Assembly: GCA_947177735.1 (NCBI GenBank)
Contig: CAMWVP010000011.1
Location: forward strand, 1-39,164
DNA: 39,164 nt
Origin: an uncultured Clostridia bacterium
Lineage (GTDB): Bacteria > Bacillota > Clostridia > Oscillospirales > Ruminococcaceae
Direction of reading: 5' to 3'
The translations under genes and the position numbers were made by a program. Under the pieces are notes generated by a model. It was not told where the DNA came from. It saw only the letters and a list, made by a program, of their open reading frames with translations, and did not search any database. Within the stretch, counting starts at the first letter, position 1, and each line of letters starts with the position of its first letter. This document shows positions 11,422 to 37,329 of this stretch, piece by piece.

Positions 11422-11458
11422 CACGGAGAATCGCAATTAAAATTTGGAGGTCAAACTA

Positions 11459-13654
11459 ATGGTTAAATCACTTTACACCGGCGTAACCGGTCTGAAAACC
11501 CACCAGCAGAGAATGGACGTTATCGGTAACAATATCGCTAACGTAAACACCGTCGGCTATAAGACCGACGTAGTAACCTTTGCGGATATTTACTATCAGT
11601 CAAAGCGTTCTCCCTCGGCGGGCACCAGCACCCGAGGCGGCGTAAACCCCAGACAGGTAGGTTACGGCGTTAAGGTAAACAGCGTTACCGCGAATATGAC
11701 CGCGTCGGGTTACACCCAGTCGGATAAGACTACCGACCTTGCGCTTGACGGCGAGGGCTTCTTCCAGGTAATGTCTCCTTCCGGACAGATATACTACACC
11801 AGAGCGGGCGATTTTTATATCGATGACGACGGCTACCTCGTAAACGCGGACGGCTACTATGTTCTCGGTGTTACGGGCGACAGCACGGGCGTTGCGGCAA
11901 GCAACGATCTTATCCGCATTTCCGCGCCCGCGACCAACGCGAACCGCTCCTCTATCACAAAGCTGGTAAACGGCACCAACGTAACTCTCACGGTAGACGC
12001 GCCGTCCGAGTACACCGATATGACGGTTTCTTTCAAGCACGCGGAGTTCCCGTATGCGACGTTCCAGAACAACATTCTGACCGTGTTCATCAACACCGAT
12101 CAGCAGTATAACTCCGAGGACGAGTTCAACCAGGCTGTCCTCAAGGCGCTCCAGACGGGCGGCGTTACGCTCCCCGATGACGTTTCGCTTAACGTTACGT
12201 TCGAGGAGATTCCCAACGATTACCTCGCACAGGCTGCGAAGAACGACGTTCAGGATATCGTGTTCACCACGACGACCTCTACCGCGCGTTTCCACTATTC
12301 GGATACCGTAGGCGGCAAGACGCTGCACTCGTACATCGACTTCTCGGTTATCGGAAGCGGCAGCACCGACAAGGTAGACATAGCTTATGACCCAGCTGTC
12401 AACAAGGCAAGAGCCAATTACGAGAACGGTACCTGGACTATCACGGTTCGTGAGGACACTACCGCTGCCGACATCAACTCGGCGATCAAGTCTTTCCTGA
12501 ACGATAATCCCACCGTTTCCGTTGAAGAGCTTAAGTGCTCCGGCTTCCTTATCCCGTCGGGTCTTGACAAGAGAACCGTTCTGCAGGCGTTTGACACCGG
12601 CACGGCTGCCGGCGATACGGCAGTTGTTGAAGCGGGAAATGCGGGTGTAATCGATCTTAAGGGCGTAGAAAAGGGCGCGGGAATTACGGGCGCATTTGAC
12701 TTCAACGTTAAGGACGAGGGCGAGTTCGCCAACAACTATAAGATCGTCTTTGCTTACAAGTCGAGCTACGGCGCTACCACCGCGGTCTGGGAGGAAAACA
12801 CACTCACCGTCAATATCGCTCCCGATTCCACCGTTTATGACGTAAACGAGGCTATCAAGAAGGCTGCGAACGGCAACACCAAGAAGCTTATCAAGTTCAA
12901 TAATATCAACGGTCTCCAGTACGGTTACGGCGAGGTCGGCGGAACCGGAAAGGTTACAACGTCCACTACTACCGATGCGGACGGCAATCCCGTAACGGTG
13001 ACTACGACGGAGTACAACGCAGGATTTTATTCGATAGAGCAGGGCGGTACGACCACTTGGTACGATAAGGACGGTCGTGAGCTTACCGGAGATCAGGTAC
13101 CGACTGCCGACGATACCGCCGAGAAGGATCCGACAGACGCAGCTGCGGTATGGAACGTAGGTATCAGACAGGCGTTCTTCGGCGACAACCCCAAGGTTAA
13201 CCCCAAGGGCGGTAAGGATTCGTTCTTCACCCAGACCGCCAAGAGCATGTCCTCGTTCAACCTCCAGGACGGCCGTCTCGGCTCCGAGCAGCCCCTGAAG
13301 TCCATCACCGACCTTATTATCCAGAACGACGGTACCATCATCGGTTACCATGCCGTTCACGGTTATATGAACCTCGGACGTATCGACATCGCACTGTTCG
13401 ATAACCCCAACGGTCTCGCTAAGGTCACCGGTACAACGTTCAGAGCAACGGTAGCTTCCGGCGATCCCAGACTCGCGGTTGCGGGCGAGGACGGCGCAGG
13501 CTCCGTACTCAGCGGCACGCTCGAGATGTCCAACGTAGACCTCGCGGACGAGTTCACCAACATGATCGCGACCCAGAGAGGTTATCAGGCAAATTCCCGT
13601 GTCGTAACGGTTTCCGATACGATGATCGAGGAGCTGCTCAACCTCAAGAGATAA
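11459..13654 (+). CDS. flgE: Flagellar hook protein FlgE (long form)
   Basis: FlgE is the subunit of the curved hook. The N-terminus (LYTGVTGLKTHQQRMDVIGN, then NIANVNTVGYKTD) is the standard rod/hook signature. A hook-type module with LDGEGFFQVMSPSGQIYYTR lies near residues 95-115. The C-terminus has SNVDLADEFTNMIATQRGYQ and NSRVVTVSDTMIEELLNL. At 731 residues it is far longer than Bacillus subtilis FlgE (about 264) and Salmonella FlgE (about 400). The extra length lies between about residues 140 and 560, where the variable surface domains D2/D3 insert. The ATG at 11459 has TTTGGAGGT in front; an in-frame TTG 15 bases upstream is less likely. Hairpins flank the gene on both sides. Confidence 0.95.
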   Translation: MVKSLYTGVTGLKTHQQRMDVIGNNIANVNTVGYKTDVVTFADIYYQSKRSPSAGTSTRGGVNPRQVGYGVKVNSVTANMTASGYTQSDKTTDLALDGEGFFQVMSPSGQIYYTRAGDFYIDDDGYLVNADGYYVLGVTGDSTGVAASNDLIRISAPATNANRSSITKLVNGTNVTLTVDAPSEYTDMTVSFKHAEFPYATFQNNILTVFINTDQQYNSEDEFNQAVLKALQTGGVTLPDDVSLNVTFEEIPNDYLAQAAKNDVQDIVFTTTTSTARFHYSDTVGGKTLHSYIDFSVIGSGSTDKVDIAYDPAVNKARANYENGTWTITVREDTTAADINSAIKSFLNDNPTVSVEELKCSGFLIPSGLDKRTVLQAFDTGTAAGDTAVVEAGNAGVIDLKGVEKGAGITGAFDFNVKDEGEFANNYKIVFAYKSSYGATTAVWEENTLTVNIAPDSTVYDVNEAIKKAANGNTKKLIKFNNINGLQYGYGEVGGTGKVTTSTTTDADGNPVTVTTTEYNAGFYSIEQGGTTTWYDKDGRELTGDQVPTADDTAEKDPTDAAAVWNVGIRQAFFGDNPKVNPKGGKDSFFTQTAKSMSSFNLQDGRLGSEQPLKSITDLIIQNDGTIIGYHAVHGYMNLGRIDIALFDNPNGLAKVTGTTFRATVASGDPRLAVAGEDGAGSVLSGTLEMSNVDLADEFTNMIATQRGYQANSRVVTVSDTMIEELLNLKR

Positions 13655-24428: not shown

Positions 24429-25181
24429 ATGGATAATATTTCCAATAACGCCGAGCAGATAGCTCTCTATCGGCAAAACGGCGAAATTGCGCTCCGCAAC
24501 GAGATCGTGCTCAATAATATGGGGCTTGTGCGCTCCTGTGCGCTGTCGATGAGGAATATGTACATCAAGTTCGGCGAGACCGACGATATCATCAACGAGG
24601 GCGTGCTTGCGCTTATGGACGCGATCGAGACGTTCGACCCCGCAAAGGGCGCGAAATTCGAGACCTACGCTTCATTGAAAATCCGCGGCGCGGTCATCGA
24701 TTATCTGCGAAAGCAGGACTGGATACCCAGAAACGTGAGAAAATTCGCGCGTATACTTGACAAAGCTAACAGTATGTTGTATAATTTAAATGGGAGGGCA
24801 CCTACTACCGAGGAGCTTGCGGAGCACTTGGGGATGGACGAGGATAAGCTCCTAAAGCAGATGGCGGAGTGTTCCTGCACGATAACGCTGTCGTTCGAGG
24901 AGCTGCTCTACGAGGACAACATAGACGAGCCCGCTGTGGACGCGCCATCCGATAACGGACTGCTCCGCGAGGAGATGAGCCGCGAGATAGCTAAGGCTAT
25001 CGATGAACTGCGCGACAAGGAGCGGCAGGTGATCACGCTCTACTACTACAAGAATATGAAATATTCCGACATCGCGAAAGCGCTCGGCGTTTCTGAGAGT
25101 CGCGTGTGTCAGATCCATACAAAGGCTGTCTTGCTGCTGAAAGCAAAGCTCGAGCCGTATTTTAAAGGAGGAACCGCATGA
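24429..25181 (+). CDS. fliA: Flagellar sigma factor, FliA/SigD/WhiG family (sigma-28)
   Basis: This sigma factor directs late flagellar genes such as flagellin. The 250-residue protein has region 2 (GETDDIINEGVLALMDAIET, FDPAKGAKFETYASLKIRGA), the FliA hallmark DYLRKQDWIPRNVRKFAR, region 3 (GRAPTTEELAEHLGM) and region 4 (MKYSDIAKALGVSESRVCQI). I place the start at ATG 24429 with GGGGTGG in front; two in-frame GTG codons lie just upstream. Its stop overlaps the start of flgF (ATGA), and its last codons encode the flgF ribosome binding site. FliA is normally held in check by FlgM, which is not in the window. Confidence 0.93.
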   Translation: MDNISNNAEQIALYRQNGEIALRNEIVLNNMGLVRSCALSMRNMYIKFGETDDIINEGVLALMDAIETFDPAKGAKFETYASLKIRGAVIDYLRKQDWIPRNVRKFARILDKANSMLYNLNGRAPTTEELAEHLGMDEDKLLKQMAECSCTITLSFEELLYEDNIDEPAVDAPSDNGLLREEMSREIAKAIDELRDKERQVITLYYYKNMKYSDIAKALGVSESRVCQIHTKAVLLLKAKLEPYFKGGTA

Positions 25182-25930
25182 ACAGAGGGTTTTACTACGC
25201 CTGTAACGGTATGATATTGAATCAGAGAAGGCTGGACTGTATCGGCAATAACCTCGCGAACGCAAGCACGCCCGGTTATAAGCGCGATACGCTCCTTGTT
25301 GAAAGATTTGACGAGCATATGATCCTCGTAAAGCACCGTCAGGAGCTTTCGGGAACTTTCGCGCATACCTATGTTGACGATTCCTATACCGACCTTGAGC
25401 AGGGCTTTTTCGAGCAGACGGAGTCTCCGTTCGACGTGGCCATCTGGGGAGACGTTTACTTCAACATCGCGGGCTACAACGGCGAGACGATGCTGACGAG
25501 AAACGGCGACTGGGAGCTTGACGGCGAGGGTTACCTCTCGCTCTCGAACTCGGGCAGAGTGCTCGGCGAGAACGGCGAGATATACCTCGGCAACAAGGAC
25601 TTCATTATCGACGTTGACGGCAGCATTTATCAGGTCAACGAGGTGGGCGAGCGAGTGCTTGTCGACAGGCTTCTGCTGAGCTACATCGACCCCGATTCGG
25701 ACGTTACGAAGTTCGGCGTGAATATGTTCACCTCGGTGAACGCACAGCCCGTGCCCGAGGGGACAAGATACGACATCGTTCAGGGCGCGCTCGAGCGCTC
25801 GAATATCGACTACAACTACGAGCTTACAATGATGATGAACGCGAGCAGACTGTTCGAGACCAACAGTAAAATACTCCAGATCTGCGACGCCGTGAACAAT
25901 TCCACGAGTTCGCTCTGCAAGAAGGCATAA
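25178..25930 (+). CDS. flgF: Flagellar rod protein FlgF type
   Basis: This is a distal/proximal rod subunit of the FlgF/FlgG family. The N-terminal signature is RLDCIGNNLANASTPGYKRD (residues 18-37). One beta-module (FNIAGYNGETMLTRNGDWEL) lies in the middle, and the C-terminus has GALERSNIDYNYELTMMMNA then a short helix. The 250-residue length is usual for FlgF. The ATG overlaps the sigma-factor stop by four bases, suggesting translational coupling. FlgF and FlgG are hard to tell apart; I use flgF because it is the first of the pair. Confidence 0.88.
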   Translation: MNRGFYYACNGMILNQRRLDCIGNNLANASTPGYKRDTLLVERFDEHMILVKHRQELSGTFAHTYVDDSYTDLEQGFFEQTESPFDVAIWGDVYFNIAGYNGETMLTRNGDWELDGEGYLSLSNSGRVLGENGEIYLGNKDFIIDVDGSIYQVNEVGERVLVDRLLLSYIDPDSDVTKFGVNMFTSVNAQPVPEGTRYDIVQGALERSNIDYNYELTMMMNASRLFETNSKILQICDAVNNSTSSLCKKA

Positions 25931-25948
25931 CGGGGGAGGACAGGTCTT

Positions 25949-27700
25949 ATGAATATATCGTTCCACACGGGTAAATCCGCGATGATCGCGCAGGCTAAGG
26001 CACTGAATATCTACGGCAACAACATCGCGAACGTAAACACCGTTGGCTATCAGACGATCCGTCCCGCGTTCGCGGATTGTATCTATGATGTTGAAAGAGC
26101 GCCGCAGCCCGATTGGCAGACGGGTCACGGTACATATATACAGAAAACCGATCTGATGTTCTCGGAGTCGCACTTCGAGTTCACCGACCGTCCGCAGGAT
26201 ATGGCGATAGCGGGCGAGGGCTTCTTTGCGGTCGAGGATCGCTGGGGCGACATAAACTACACCCGCGACGGCGCGTTCGGAGTTACACAGCTTGAGGATG
26301 GGCAGTGGTACCTTGTTTCCAGCTCGGGAGAATTTGTGCTCGACTACGATCGGAACCGTATCATAGTACCGTTCGAGGAGATCGACAAGGGCACCGTCCG
26401 CAACAGTATCGATTGGGAAGCGGTAAGTCAGCAGATCGGAACGTTCACGCTGGACACGGACGCTACCCGTAGGATACGCTACAAATACACGGGCGAGGGC
26501 TTTATCGCGGGCGACGACGGGGAGAATGTTCCCGATCCCGCTTTCATTGAGGACGCTGTTGTGGAGATCACGGGCGCTGACGGAACAGTGCCGAGTGCCG
26601 CTACGATAACGACGGCGAACGGCTATTTCGCGGTGCGCGACAGCTACGGAAATATAAGCTACACTCGCGACGGAACGCTTTCCATTCAGAAGTATAAGGG
26701 CAAATGGTATCTCGGCTCGTCCGAGGGAGAGCTTATCCTCGACAGTGATAAGAAGCCCATTGAGGTGACGTTCAGAGACCCCGCTATTGAGGACGTTGAG
26801 ACGGCTGTCATGGAGAGGATCGCCGTTAATGATGAGGGTCAGGTCTATGTCCGCGATCTTGAAACGGATGAGGCTGTTTATAAAGAGACCGCCGGTTATG
26901 CGGTGCAGAGAGACGGAAATAAGTGCTATATCGTGACGGCGGAGGGCGAATACGTCCTTGACAGCAGCGGAAGCCGCATTGAGGTTCCGTCGAGAGAGGG
27001 CGACTATTACAGCGTCAACTGGGAGGAATTGGTAACTCCCGCCGGCGAGGGCGAGGAGCTTCGTCAGAGGATCGGAGTGTTCGAGTTCGCGAATCCCGCC
27101 GATCTGACGACGGACGACCACTTGTTCTACGAGGGCACGGGTACCGCGTCGGACGTAGAGAGGGTAGTGGACGGGTCGAGCATTAAGCTCAACGGTCCCG
27201 ATTCGTTCTTTGCGGTGCAGGGTGAGGACGGTACAGTCAGATACACTCACAGCACGAGCTTTGACGTCGTTCAGGCTGAGGACGGCGCGTGGTATCTCGC
27301 GACGAGCCGCGGAGAGTATATTCTCGGCGCTGATAATCAGAGAATTTTGGTGGCTGAAGCGAATCAGTACACGCCCAACGTGGATTGGGACGAGCTGACG
27401 GAGATGGTGGGCGTGTTCGAGTTTCCGAATCCGTTCGGTATCGAGGCGCTCGGCACGAACCGTTATGTTGCGACGGACAGGAGCGGCGAGCCCGTGGCTT
27501 GCCGTGAGCAGAGAGAGGTAAACGGCGAGATCGTGTGGGTGAATACTATGGATAAGCTTCCCGGCACGCTTATCGTATCCAACGTTGACCTCGCGACACA
27601 GATGGTAAAGCTGATAGAAACGCAGAGAGCGTACCAGCTCAGCTCGAGAGTGGTGACCACCTCCGACGAGCTCGCGCGTATCGCAAACAATCTGCGCTGA
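25949..27700 (+). CDS. flgG: Flagellar rod protein FlgG type with tandemly repeated beta-modules
   Basis: The ends are those of a normal rod/hook protein: ALNIYGNNIANVNTVGYQTI at residues 18-37 and SNVDLATQMVKLIETQRAYQ then SSRVVTTSDEL at the C-terminus. FlgG is usually about 260 residues; this one is 583. The extra length is made of repeats of the family's own module. Units of the form FFAV..G.I.YTRDG....G.WYL..S.GE.ILD occur at about residues 91-142, 225-275, 316-347 (shortened) and 419-470. A second unit, (N/D)W.E(L)...IG.F.F.NP..L....Y..TG.G, recurs at about 155-184, 357-400 and 479-515. The reading frame is open throughout and codon use matches the neighbours, so this is not an assembly error that I can see. 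It starts 18 bases after flgF behind GGGGGAGGA. Confidence 0.9.
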   Translation: MNISFHTGKSAMIAQAKALNIYGNNIANVNTVGYQTIRPAFADCIYDVERAPQPDWQTGHGTYIQKTDLMFSESHFEFTDRPQDMAIAGEGFFAVEDRWGDINYTRDGAFGVTQLEDGQWYLVSSSGEFVLDYDRNRIIVPFEEIDKGTVRNSIDWEAVSQQIGTFTLDTDATRRIRYKYTGEGFIAGDDGENVPDPAFIEDAVVEITGADGTVPSAATITTANGYFAVRDSYGNISYTRDGTLSIQKYKGKWYLGSSEGELILDSDKKPIEVTFRDPAIEDVETAVMERIAVNDEGQVYVRDLETDEAVYKETAGYAVQRDGNKCYIVTAEGEYVLDSSGSRIEVPSREGDYYSVNWEELVTPAGEGEELRQRIGVFEFANPADLTTDDHLFYEGTGTASDVERVVDGSSIKLNGPDSFFAVQGEDGTVRYTHSTSFDVVQAEDGAWYLATSRGEYILGADNQRILVAEANQYTPNVDWDELTEMVGVFEFPNPFGIEALGTNRYVATDRSGEPVACREQREVNGEIVWVNTMDKLPGTLIVSNVDLATQMVKLIETQRAYQLSSRVVTTSDELARIANNLR

Positions 27701-33702: not shown

Positions 33703-36700
33703 TTACTTTTCAAACTCTTCCTTGTATGCCTTCTGCATCTCAACAAGGTGATCGTACTTAGCCTTGGAGTTTGCAACTGCCTTGTCGAACAGTACGGTAG
33801 CTCTGTCGGGGTTAGCACGCATGAGCGAGTTGTAACGTACCTCTCTCATCATGAACGCCTTGTAGTCGCCTGTAGGAGCCTTGCTGTCGAGCGTGAACGG
33901 AGACTTGCCCTCGTCGGCGAGCGCGGGATTGAAGCGGAACAGATGCCAGTAACCCGCCTCAACAGCTTCCTTCTCAACCTGCTGAGCGATTGTCAGACCG
34001 CCCTTGATACCGTGGTTGATACACGGAGCGTATGCGATGATCAGCGAAGGTCCGTCATAAGCCTCAGCCTCTGCGATAGCCTTGAGCGTCTGGTTTCTGT
34101 CGGCGCCCATTGCGATCTGAGCAACGTATACATAACCGTAGCTCATTGCGATACCCGCGAGATCCTTCTTCTTAACGTCCTTACCGCCCGCAGCGAACTG
34201 CGCAACAGCGCCTACGTTCGTAGCCTTGGAAGCCTGACCGCCGGTGTTGGAGTAAACCTCGGTATCGAATACGAAGATGTTTACGTTCTTGCCGGAAGCG
34301 ATAACGTGGTCAAGTCCGCCGTAACCAATATCGTAAGCCCAGCCGTCGCCGCCGAAGATCCACTGGCTCTTCTTGGAGAGGTAGCTCTTGAGCTTGAGCA
34401 CTTCCTTGACTGCGGGCTCGTTATTGCACTGGCAGTTCTCGAATGCCTCAACGAGGTTCTTGGTAGCCTCTGCGTTAGCCTTGCCGTCGTTCTCGGTCTT
34501 GAAGTACTCGTCGATGAGACCCTTAGCCTTTTCGTGACCGTCAAGCGCCGCGATCTCCTTCAGCTTGCTCTGCGCTCTCTTGCGGAGAGTATCCTGAGCC
34601 AGGAACATACCGAGACCGAATTCAGCGTTGTCCTCGAACAGGGAGTTCGCCCAAGCGGGACCGTGACCTGCCTTGTTGGTGGTGTACGGAGTGGAGGGCT
34701 CGGAGCCTGCCCAGATAGAGGAGCAGCCCGTTGCGTTCGCGATATACATTCTGTCGCCGAACAGCTGAGTGATGAGCTTAGCATACGGAGTCTCGCCGCA
34801 GCCTGCGCACGCGCCGGAGAATTCGAGCAGCGGCTGCTTGAACTGAGCGCCCTTAACGGTGGAATCCTTGAACTTCTCAACGGCAGCGTCGTTGGAGTTG
34901 TCGTTAGCCACAGCGTAGTCGAAGAACTTCTGCTGCTCCATAGCCTCCTCGATGGGAGTCATAACGAGAGCGTTCTTAGCCTTATCCTTAGCGCCTGCGG
35001 GGCAGATGTTAGCGCAAACGCCGCAGCCCGTGCAGTCCAACGTAGAAATAGCCATTGTGAACTTCATACCGGGCATTCCGGTAGCGTCCTTGACAGCGGT
35101 GCCGGCGGGCAGCTTGGCAGCCTGCTCGTCGCTGTATACGAACGGACGGATAACAGCGTGCGGACATACCATTGCGCACTGGTTACACTGGATACAGTTC
35201 TCGGGAATCCACTTGGGAACGTCAACCGCGATGCCGCGCTTCTCGAATGCAGCGGAGCCCTGCGGGAATGTGCCGTCCGCGATGTCCACGAAGGTGGAAA
35301 CGGGAAGCTTGTCGCCGCGCTGAGCGTTTACGGGAACCTGAATGTTGTTTACAAAGTCAACGAGGAACTTGTTGTCGCCCTCGAAGTGCGGGTGAACCAG
35401 CTCGCCCGTGCAATCAGCCCAAGCAGCGGGAACGTCTACCTTGACAACCGCGCCCGCGCCCTGATCGATAGCGGCGTAGTTCATGTTTACGATGTCCTCG
35501 CCCTTCTTGCCGAACGAAGCGAGAGCCTTTTCCTTCATATACTTCACAGCGTCATCAGCGGGGATGATGTTCGCCAGCTTGAAGAACGCGGACTGAAGAA
35601 CGGTATTCGTTCTGTTGCCCAGACCGATCTCCTTGGCGATCTTGATCGCGTTGATGATGTAGAAGTTGATGTTGTTCTTAGCGATATAAGCCTTTACGGG
35701 CGCGGGGAGCTTCTCGTCGAGCTCTTCAACGCTCCACTGGCAGTTCAGCAGGAACGTGCCGCCCGGGATAACGTCCTCGACCATATCGTACTTGTCGATA
35801 TAAGAGGGGTTATGGCAGGCAACGAAGTTCGCCTTGTTTACGAAGTAGGTCGACTTGATGGGGCTCTTACCGAATCTCAGGTGAGAGATCGTTACGCCGC
35901 CCGACTTCTTGGAGTCGTATGCGAAGTATGCCTGCGCGTACATATCGGTGTGGTCGCCGATGATCTTGATGGAGTTCTTGTTCGCGCCGACAGTACCGTC
36001 GGAGCCGAGACCCCAGAACTTACAGCAGGTAGTGCCCTCGGGAGTGGTGTTCGGATTCTCGGTGATAGCGAGCGACAGATTGGTAACATCGTCCTCGATA
36101 CCGATCGTGAAGATGGGCTTCTCCTTGTTGTTGTAGACCGCGATGATCTGCGCGGGGTTGCAGTCCTTGGAACCGAGACCGTAGCGTCCGCTGAATACGG
36201 GAACGTCGTTGAACTTGTTCTCGCGCTTGAGAGCAGCAACAACGTCGAGGAACAGAGGCTCGCCGAGAGAGCCGGGCTCCTTGGTTCTGTCAAGAACGGT
36301 GATCTTCTTAGCCGTCGCGGGGATAGCCGAAACGAATGCCGAAGATACGAACGGTCTGTAAAGTCTTACCTTAACGAGACCTACCTTGCGTCCCTGTGCC
36401 ATCATATAGTCGATAGTCTCCTCAATGGTGTCGCAAACGGAGCCCATAGCAACGATAACTTCCTCCGCGTCGGGAGCGCCGTAGTAGTTGAACAGCTTGT
36501 AGTCGGTGCCGATCTCCGCGTTTACCTTGTCCATATACTCGGTAACTATGTTCGGGATATTCTCGTAGTACTTGTTGCAAGCCTCGCGAGCCTGGAAGAA
36601 GATGTCGGGGTTCTGTGCGGTACCGTGGAGCACGGGCTGCTCGGGGTTGAGCGCCTTGTCGCGGAACGCCTGGATAGCATCCCAGTCAACCATCTTAGCG

Positions 36701-37272
36701 AGGGTATCGTAGTCCCAAACCTCGATCTTCTGGATCTCGTGAGAGGTTCTGAAGCCGTCGAAGAAGTGCAGGAACGGAACTCTGCCCTTGATAGTCGAAA
36801 GGTGAGCGACAGCGCCGAGATCCATTACCTCCTGCGGGTTGGTCGAGCAGAGCATAGCGTAGCCTGTCTGGCGGCAAGCGTAGATATCGCTGTGGTCGCC
36901 GAAGATAGACAGCGCGTGGGAAGCTACCGCACGAGCCGAAACGTGGATAACGGACGGAAGCAGCTCGCCCGCGATCTTGTACATATTGGGTATCATCAGG
37001 AGCAAGCCCTGAGAAGCAGTGTAGGTGGTAGTAAGCGCACCTGCGGAGAGGGAGCCGTGAACCGCGCCCGCTGCACCTGCCTCGGACTGCATTTCTACAA
37101 CCTTAACCTGCTCGCCGAAAATATTCTTTCTTCCTGCCGTTGCCCAGGAATCCGTGACCTCCGCCATAACGGACGAAGGGGTGATGGGGTAAATAGCCGC
37201 CAAGTCGGTAAACGCGTAAGACACGTGACCTGCCGCGTTGTTACCATCCATCGTTAACTTTTTTCTAGCCAT
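33703..37272 (-). CDS. nifJ: Pyruvate:ferredoxin (flavodoxin) oxidoreductase
   Basis: PFOR oxidises pyruvate with CoA to acetyl-CoA and CO2 and reduces ferredoxin, a central step of anaerobic fermentation. The 1189-residue single-chain enzyme has all domains. The N-terminal pyruvate site (AAIYPITPSSVMAE) is near residue 30. Two ferredoxin-type clusters are at about residues 690 (CIQCNQCAMVCP) and 745 (CTGCGVCANICPAG). The thiamine diphosphate domain has CAGCGETPYAKL near 820, GDGWAYDIGYGG near 974 and DTEVYSNTGGQ. The ATG at 37272 is chosen because AGGAGG precedes it and the protein then begins MARKKLTMDGNNAAG, the usual form; a longer frame adds 18 unlikely residues. It is transcribed alone, convergent with the ECF module. 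Confidence 0.97.
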   Translation of the reverse strand: MARKKLTMDGNNAAGHVSYAFTDLAAIYPITPSSVMAEVTDSWATAGRKNIFGEQVKVVEMQSEAGAAGAVHGSLSAGALTTTYTASQGLLLMIPNMYKIAGELLPSVIHVSARAVASHALSIFGDHSDIYACRQTGYAMLCSTNPQEVMDLGAVAHLSTIKGRVPFLHFFDGFRTSHEIQKIEVWDYDTLAKMVDWDAIQAFRDKALNPEQPVLHGTAQNPDIFFQAREACNKYYENIPNIVTEYMDKVNAEIGTDYKLFNYYGAPDAEEVIVAMGSVCDTIEETIDYMMAQGRKVGLVKVRLYRPFVSSAFVSAIPATAKKITVLDRTKEPGSLGEPLFLDVVAALKRENKFNDVPVFSGRYGLGSKDCNPAQIIAVYNNKEKPIFTIGIEDDVTNLSLAITENPNTTPEGTTCCKFWGLGSDGTVGANKNSIKIIGDHTDMYAQAYFAYDSKKSGGVTISHLRFGKSPIKSTYFVNKANFVACHNPSYIDKYDMVEDVIPGGTFLLNCQWSVEELDEKLPAPVKAYIAKNNINFYIINAIKIAKEIGLGNRTNTVLQSAFFKLANIIPADDAVKYMKEKALASFGKKGEDIVNMNYAAIDQGAGAVVKVDVPAAWADCTGELVHPHFEGDNKFLVDFVNNIQVPVNAQRGDKLPVSTFVDIADGTFPQGSAAFEKRGIAVDVPKWIPENCIQCNQCAMVCPHAVIRPFVYSDEQAAKLPAGTAVKDATGMPGMKFTMAISTLDCTGCGVCANICPAGAKDKAKNALVMTPIEEAMEQQKFFDYAVANDNSNDAAVEKFKDSTVKGAQFKQPLLEFSGACAGCGETPYAKLITQLFGDRMYIANATGCSSIWAGSEPSTPYTTNKAGHGPAWANSLFEDNAEFGLGMFLAQDTLRKRAQSKLKEIAALDGHEKAKGLIDEYFKTENDGKANAEATKNLVEAFENCQCNNEPAVKEVLKLKSYLSKKSQWIFGGDGWAYDIGYGGLDHVIASGKNVNIFVFDTEVYSNTGGQASKATNVGAVAQFAAGGKDVKKKDLAGIAMSYGYVYVAQIAMGADRNQTLKAIAEAEAYDGPSLIIAYAPCINHGIKGGLTIAQQVEKEAVEAGYWHLFRFNPALADEGKSPFTLDSKAPTGDYKAFMMREVRYNSLMRANPDRATVLFDKAVANSKAKYDHLVEMQKAYKEEFEK

Positions 37273-37317
37273 TGGATTTTTTCCTCCTAAATACATAGTA
37301 TTATTATCGGCAATCGT

Positions 37318-37329
37318 GTTGTACACAAC
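37318..37329. promoter_or_regulatory. Possible operator in the nifJ leader
   Basis: GTTGTACACAAC is a 12-base inverted repeat (GTTGT/ACAAC), about 20 bases downstream of the nifJ -10 box, where a repressor could block transcription. It does not match the Rex consensus TTGTTAA-N4-TTAACAA, so no regulator can be named. Confidence 0.35.

Follow-up and report, generated by a model that had tools for sequence, protein, structure and literature searches.

How does FlgG, the distal-rod protein of the flagellum, come to be about two and a half times its ordinary length, and what might the added sequence do for the rod? The question is raised by a flgG-type gene (in the position of flhP) at 25949..27700 on the forward strand of contig CAMWVP010000011.1, from the uncultured Clostridia bacterium GCA_947177735.1. 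The whole stretch analysed, 39,164 nt, is called the window below, and unlabelled coordinates refer to it. The gene has an ATG start and encodes 583 amino acids (aa) with four D1-type modules, and thus departs from the ordinary FlgG, which has one D1 in approximately 260 residues. Our analysis suggests that the additional modules were derived by duplication, that they form an insert within D1, and that in these Clostridia without a P ring the insert gives the distal rod a second outer layer, a reading to which we assign a probability of roughly 0.6.

From 25 FlgG proteins of the same genus that have a single module, we took the D1 regions and built a D1 profile. It matched the 583-aa protein four times, at residues 85-169, 222-296, 292-386, and 418-506, with scores of 117, 57, 34, and 98 bits and E values of 2e-37, 2e-18, 3e-11, and 3e-31, respectively. 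The same four matches were obtained with a profile in which three of the 25 inputs had been truncated and with the rebuilt profile. The best domain score over 500 shuffles of the protein was 8.8 bits, compared with 34-117 bits for the real matches. In the window's FlgE the profile gave one clear match (24 bits), and in its FlgF a weak one (4.5 bits). The Pfam domain for the D1 of FlgE, FlgF, and FlgG (PF22692) was itself matched in three stretches of the protein. The residue ranges of our four matches agree with those of four YTRDG/WYL..S.GE.ILD units that an earlier note, made from the letters of this DNA alone, had marked out; the three W.EL..IG.F units that it reported were also present, at approximately 151-184, 351-394, and 476-510, the first of them degenerate. 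Copy 2 has no W..IG.F tail and passes directly into copy 3, which gives a total of four first halves and three tails.

The same note had described the protein as grown by tandem copies of its core module. This was right in that the protein's own D1 is repeated; a mere series of four D1 domains does not describe the arrangement, which is more probably an insert nested inside D1. We compared each half-module with 24 ordinary D1 sequences by mean identity. Conservation was seen in copy 1 over its first half (residues 85-145, 26201..26383; like the other parts of this gene, on the forward strand) and in copy 4, the last copy, over its second half (residues 476-510, 27374..27478), with identities of 68% and 55%, respectively, against 73% and 62% for the ordinary sequences among themselves. 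The second half of copy 1, a tail with W..IGTF (26399..26500), had diverged to a mean identity of 19% to one-module relatives across 11 long forms; for copy 4, the first half (residues 411-475, 27179..27373) had diverged to 40%. Mean tree distances followed the same division: 0.73 and 1.09 for the two conserved halves, in the same order, compared with 2.6-5.6 for the other halves. On a plain reading, these identities and distances suggest that the two outer halves make up the working D1 and that everything between them, residues 146-475 (26384..27373), would be a nested insert of approximately 330 aa that is missing from one-module relatives. Within the insert, copy 2 contributes a first half without a recognisable tail (residues 219-279, 26603..26785), and copy 3, which scores lowest of the four, contributes a first half (residues 289-350, 26813..26998) that is found only in four-copy forms. 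The tail behind copy 3 (W..IGVFEFANP; residues 351-394, 26999..27130) aligns with the middle-copy tail of three-copy forms.

The Pfam D1 profile was interrupted at position 49 of 64 in copy 1 of FlgG and at position 54 of 64 in the window's FlgE, so that the inserts of the two proteins leave D1 at nearly the same point. In Salmonella FlgE, D2 (residues 141-286) is inserted in D1 (PMC5288503; here and below, published systems are described from excerpts of the cited papers). The extra sequence of FlgG was thus found inside D1 near the D2 site, with an ordinary D1 half on either side. A single unrelated inserted domain, which the earlier note had named as an outcome that would speak against its proposal, was rejected: when the insert alone was searched against Pfam, D1 (PF22692, E 7e-15) was the sole family above its cut-off, and other families gave only weak matches, at E 0.09 and 0.57, under the cut-off. 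Foreign origin was likewise rejected, as the composition of the insert gave no sign of it (G+C content 0.56 overall and 0.68 at third codon positions, compared with 0.52-0.60 and 0.67-0.80 elsewhere in the gene).

Both ends of the protein are ordinary rod/hook sequence, as had been claimed beforehand. The N-terminal rod helix region (residues 7-35, 25967..26053) matched PF00460 with 43.4 bits against a Pfam cut-off of 20.7, and the C-terminal rod helix region (residues 539-582, 27563..27694) matched PF06429 with 53.1 bits against a cut-off of 23. The whole protein passed TIGR03506, the FlgE/F/G subfamily model, with 182.6 bits (NCBI cut-off, 70.25). Among solved structures the closest was an FlgG chain (E 4e-20), which we take to be that of Salmonella, ahead of the best FlgE (1e-14) and the best FlgF (1e-5). 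The gene immediately upstream (25178..25930, forward strand) is of ordinary size, with 250 aa and one D1, and received its top score from the FlgF model. The ranking of the structures and the flgF-type neighbor therefore place the gene in the FlgG/FlhP position.

The NCBI equivalog models for FlgG were not passed by the 583-aa protein (NF009278, 159 of 350 bits; TIGR02488, 151 of 252.75 bits), and the FlgF model TIGR02490, at 151 of 178.5 bits, was nearly level with them. The FlgG models also stayed below cut-off for two ordinary relatives (129 and 137 bits, and 123 and 132 bits), and in the relative L037 an FlgE model (134.5 bits) ranked above them. Since the FlgG models fail for ordinary relatives too, the equivalog models do not decide the name in this group. 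The sequence evidence points to the 583-aa protein as the FlgG of a flagellated clostridial bacterium that lacks a P ring, and it is predicted to assemble as the distal rod; the Bacillus subtilis FlgG is named FlhP (PMC12153297). A search of the window's genome for FlgI found none, the identical search being positive in 3 of 14 control genomes, and therefore no P ring is expected around the rod.

Structure prediction gave a poor AlphaFold model of the whole protein, with a predicted local distance difference test score of 44 and a predicted template modeling score of 0.29. The order of strands was the same in all four first halves of this model, as similar sequences would give in any case, and its structure matches to rod/hook proteins were weak, falling on copy 1 and, once, on copy 4. 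Copy 3 modeled in isolation (18 module rows) was confident over its first 60 residues; structure comparison of this model gave no match to a flagellar fold.

The earlier note had proposed a search for the repeat pattern in related genomes, and the pattern was indeed found there. Each of our samples includes one genome per species. In the sample of the genus (43 genomes), a match was obtained in 38 genomes and none in five. Eleven of the 43 carry a long FlgG of 487-599 aa, with four copies in six genomes and three copies in five; 25 carry an ordinary FlgG of 240-266 aa. One genome (G018) has a frame-broken copy, and another (G032) gave FlgE-like matches only. Beyond the genus, matches were obtained in 126 of 396 genomes of the family, 142 of 391 of the class, and 285 of 398 of the phylum. 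The matches listed included the best match for 122 genomes of the family sample and 133 of the class sample; for the phylum they comprised approximately the stronger half, and that sample is hence weak. Besides the window, no FlgG frame of at least 400 aa was seen among the matches listed for the class and phylum samples. Because the two halves of a long FlgG would be scored separately, such a protein could rank below the matches listed in any of these samples. Frames of at least 400 aa among the matches listed for the family align only up to position 133-182 of 241, with FlgE-like scores, and were provisionally taken as FlgE.

FlgG proteins of another genus of the same family have added length at this position in D1. 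The spacing from strand to tail is 107 residues in L078 (at approximately 1146-2252 in that locus) and 47 residues in L079 (1368-2207 in that locus), compared with 15-18 residues in ordinary relatives, 8 of the 26 measurements having been left out because they covered the wrong stretch. The extra sequence of L078 has no resemblance to the D1 module (0.4 bits); that of L079 resembles it weakly, in the GE.ILD part (12.1 bits), and is perhaps a small separate duplication. The occurrence of longer FlgG proteins at the same place in another genus indicates that this place is open to growth. Elsewhere in the protein, the sister group L065-L072 (eight intact genomes, one-module FlgG of 255-266 aa) has a stretch such as DFVDSDNDGQKDILE ahead of D1, at approximately residues 50-68. 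This stretch amounts to approximately 14 residues more than in other ordinary FlgG proteins and, we presume, resembles a calcium-binding loop. It lies near the region of the rod-specific insertion of Salmonella FlgG, which has 18 residues (46-65; PMC5288503).

A tree of the modules grouped all first copies in one clade (support 100/99) and all last copies in another (100/97), and the copies are therefore old and position-specific. The middle copies clustered largely by position, in a tree of few columns in which their branches are long. In a tree of neighboring proteins (FlhA, FliA, FlgF, CheC, and CheD; 1579 columns, quick method), the 11 long-form genomes and one further genome, G011, formed a single clade, with a Shimodaira-Hasegawa-like approximate likelihood ratio test value of 98. 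G011 was placed inside a fully supported group of six genomes of otherwise long forms, within which its own position was unresolved. The fewest changes between long and ordinary forms on this tree are two, one gain and one loss; when one-, three-, and four-copy states are distinguished, five changes are needed, some of them across unresolved forks. In a tree of FlhA only, the long forms fell into three groups. Strict monophyly of the 11 long forms was rejected by the approximately unbiased test (p 4e-56), as expected with G011 nested among them.

In the G011 protein, the first half of copy 1 is followed immediately, in frame, by the last copy's tail. Its D1 halves share 78% identity with the first copies and 68% with the last copies of long forms, compared with 70% and 57% for ordinary proteins, and in the module tree G011 falls outside the first-copy clade. 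We considered whether G011 might represent a basal lineage that never expanded, or might have acquired an ordinary gene by transfer, and rejected both, because its halves are nearest to those of long forms and it sits among long forms; for the same reasons a loss is preferred. In our preferred history, the D1 duplication would have arisen once, in the ancestor of the 12-genome clade, with one clean in-frame loss in G011.

The ratio of nonsynonymous to synonymous substitution rates (dN/dS) in 10 pairs was 0.04-0.28 for the insert and 0-0.14 for the other segments; synonymous change approached saturation in many of the pairs, and 4 of the 50 cells gave an infinite value. The exception to this order was one pair in which a core segment exceeded the insert. 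These values suggest that the insert is constrained but freer than the other segments, as would be the case for a surface.

What such an insert may do can be considered by analogy with the hook. The Salmonella rod, 13 nm across, has D1 as its outer surface, and D2 brings the width of the hook to 18 nm (PMC5288503); the FlgE of Campylobacter jejuni, which has D3 and D4, makes a 28-nm hook (PMC5097172). With an insert of approximately 330 residues at a D2-like site, the analogy with D2, D3, and D4 of FlgE leads us to expect an additional layer around the outside of the distal rod as the most likely outcome. The two ordinary halves would pair as a normal D1, the packing of D0 and D1 in the rod would be the ordinary one, and the intervening copies would leave D1 on its outer face, near the FlgE D2 site, to form the second layer. 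This layer would widen the rod and brace it at its passage through the cell wall, in the way that D3 and D4 brace the C. jejuni hook, and bracing the rod or fitting it in the wall is the likeliest role.

The comparison with C. jejuni FlgE holds in several respects: both are axial proteins with extra domains directed outward, or predicted to be so, of similar size, confined to limited groups of bacteria and more variable in the surface part. When D3 and D4 were removed from C. jejuni FlgE by fusing Ala235 to Gln603, with the loss of 367 residues, motility was very poor and short flagellar stubs were seen in >90% of cells (PMC5097172). However, that protein is a hook protein, its D3 and D4 are additional to D2, and the excerpts of its description mention no derivation from D1; moreover, removal of these domains led to stubs, whereas one lineage here (G011) has lost the insert. 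Salmonella FlgG and B. subtilis FlhP resemble the protein of the window in having D0 and D1 sequence at both ends and a gene beside a flgF-type gene, but they have 260 aa and a single D1, whereas here approximately 330 additional residues of D1-type modules lie inside D1. Salmonella FlgG also works inside the LP ring (PMC8298488), whereas the window's genome has no FlgI.

The main rival to an outer layer is growth without a role, in which the loop between the D1 halves accepts sequence and the insert is the product of duplication and drift, tolerated without mechanical gain rather than selected. The variation in copy number, the complete loss in G011, the dN/dS of up to 0.28, and the other extra sequence at the same place in L078 and L079 would all fit such a history. 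Retention of the insert in frame by 11 of the 12 genomes of the clade would not, nor would dN/dS well below 1 in all 10 pairs or the preservation of W..(I/V)GVF and GE.(V/I)LD signatures in several copies, and we regard tolerated growth as unlikely, though it is the alternative to be taken most seriously. More doubtful is a bolder version of the outer layer, in which the rod would sleeve itself: the nested, diverged D1 copies would act as a second shell and, with no P ring present, would do part of the bearing and bracing work that falls to the LP ring in two-membrane bacteria, and copy number (one, three, or four) would tune its width by species. It is improbable that the modules are four autonomous D1-like domains arranged as beads on a string, because the conserved halves belong to different copies and copy 2, being tailless, is not a complete D1; the linear order is nevertheless that of a plain tandem duplication, and the strand order of the model is the same in all four copies. 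Very improbable is a variable surface for attachment or for escape from host recognition: the insert does evolve faster in most pairs, but each flagellum has only a small number of FlgG subunits, located within the wall or immediately outside it, and no Pfam family besides D1 reaches its cut-off in the insert. Such a role has been proposed for the variable D3 and D4 of C. jejuni FlgE (PMC5097172). Finally, an assembly or sequencing error, which the earlier note had allowed for and which might be suspected because three of the long-form relatives are metagenome assemblies, is ruled out by the presence of the long form in 11 separately assembled genomes, and the first halves average 26-50% identity between copy classes, too distant for double assembly, in a gene with no internal stops and low dN/dS.

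The gene is part of a flagellar and chemotaxis cluster, with flhA, a sigma factor gene, and the flgF-type gene upstream and cheC downstream; FlhB, FliR, MotB, FliP, FliK, FlgD, and FlgE are encoded farther upstream. The window's hook protein FlgE (11444-13654) is large, with 736 aa. Across the genus, FlgE frames with no obvious truncation at a contig end have approximately 650-840 codons, with no evident tie to the length of FlgG. An open frame of 713 aa on the reverse strand (25109-27250) overlaps much of the flgG-type gene and was taken as a mirror of the coding strand. Beyond the flagellar cluster, a pyruvate:ferredoxin oxidoreductase gene is located at 33703-37326 on the reverse strand.

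Extra outer domains in axial proteins are already known. The nearest precedent is FlgK1 of Rhodobacter sphaeroides, an axial protein whose ends are conserved and whose size has grown three-fold between them; internal repeats in it were taken as a sign of internal duplication, and deletions within it harm swimming (PMC7277832). FlgK1 differs in being a hook-associated protein, and the motifs named in the excerpts of its description are flagellin-hook IN motifs, not the rod/hook D1 module (PMC7277832). The earlier note had not seen growth by repetition of the core module described, and FlgK1 is a near precedent. No description of a rod protein apparently grown from copies of its own D1 was found in the literature searched, which included few subscription journals.

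The insert represents a traceable and apparently reversible gain from the protein's own D1, with one-, three-, and four-copy forms and a reverted lineage in one genus. It bears on how flagellar axial proteins acquired their outer domains, and the genus offers natural pairs of species in which rod width and rod surface could be tested in a flagellum without a P ring.
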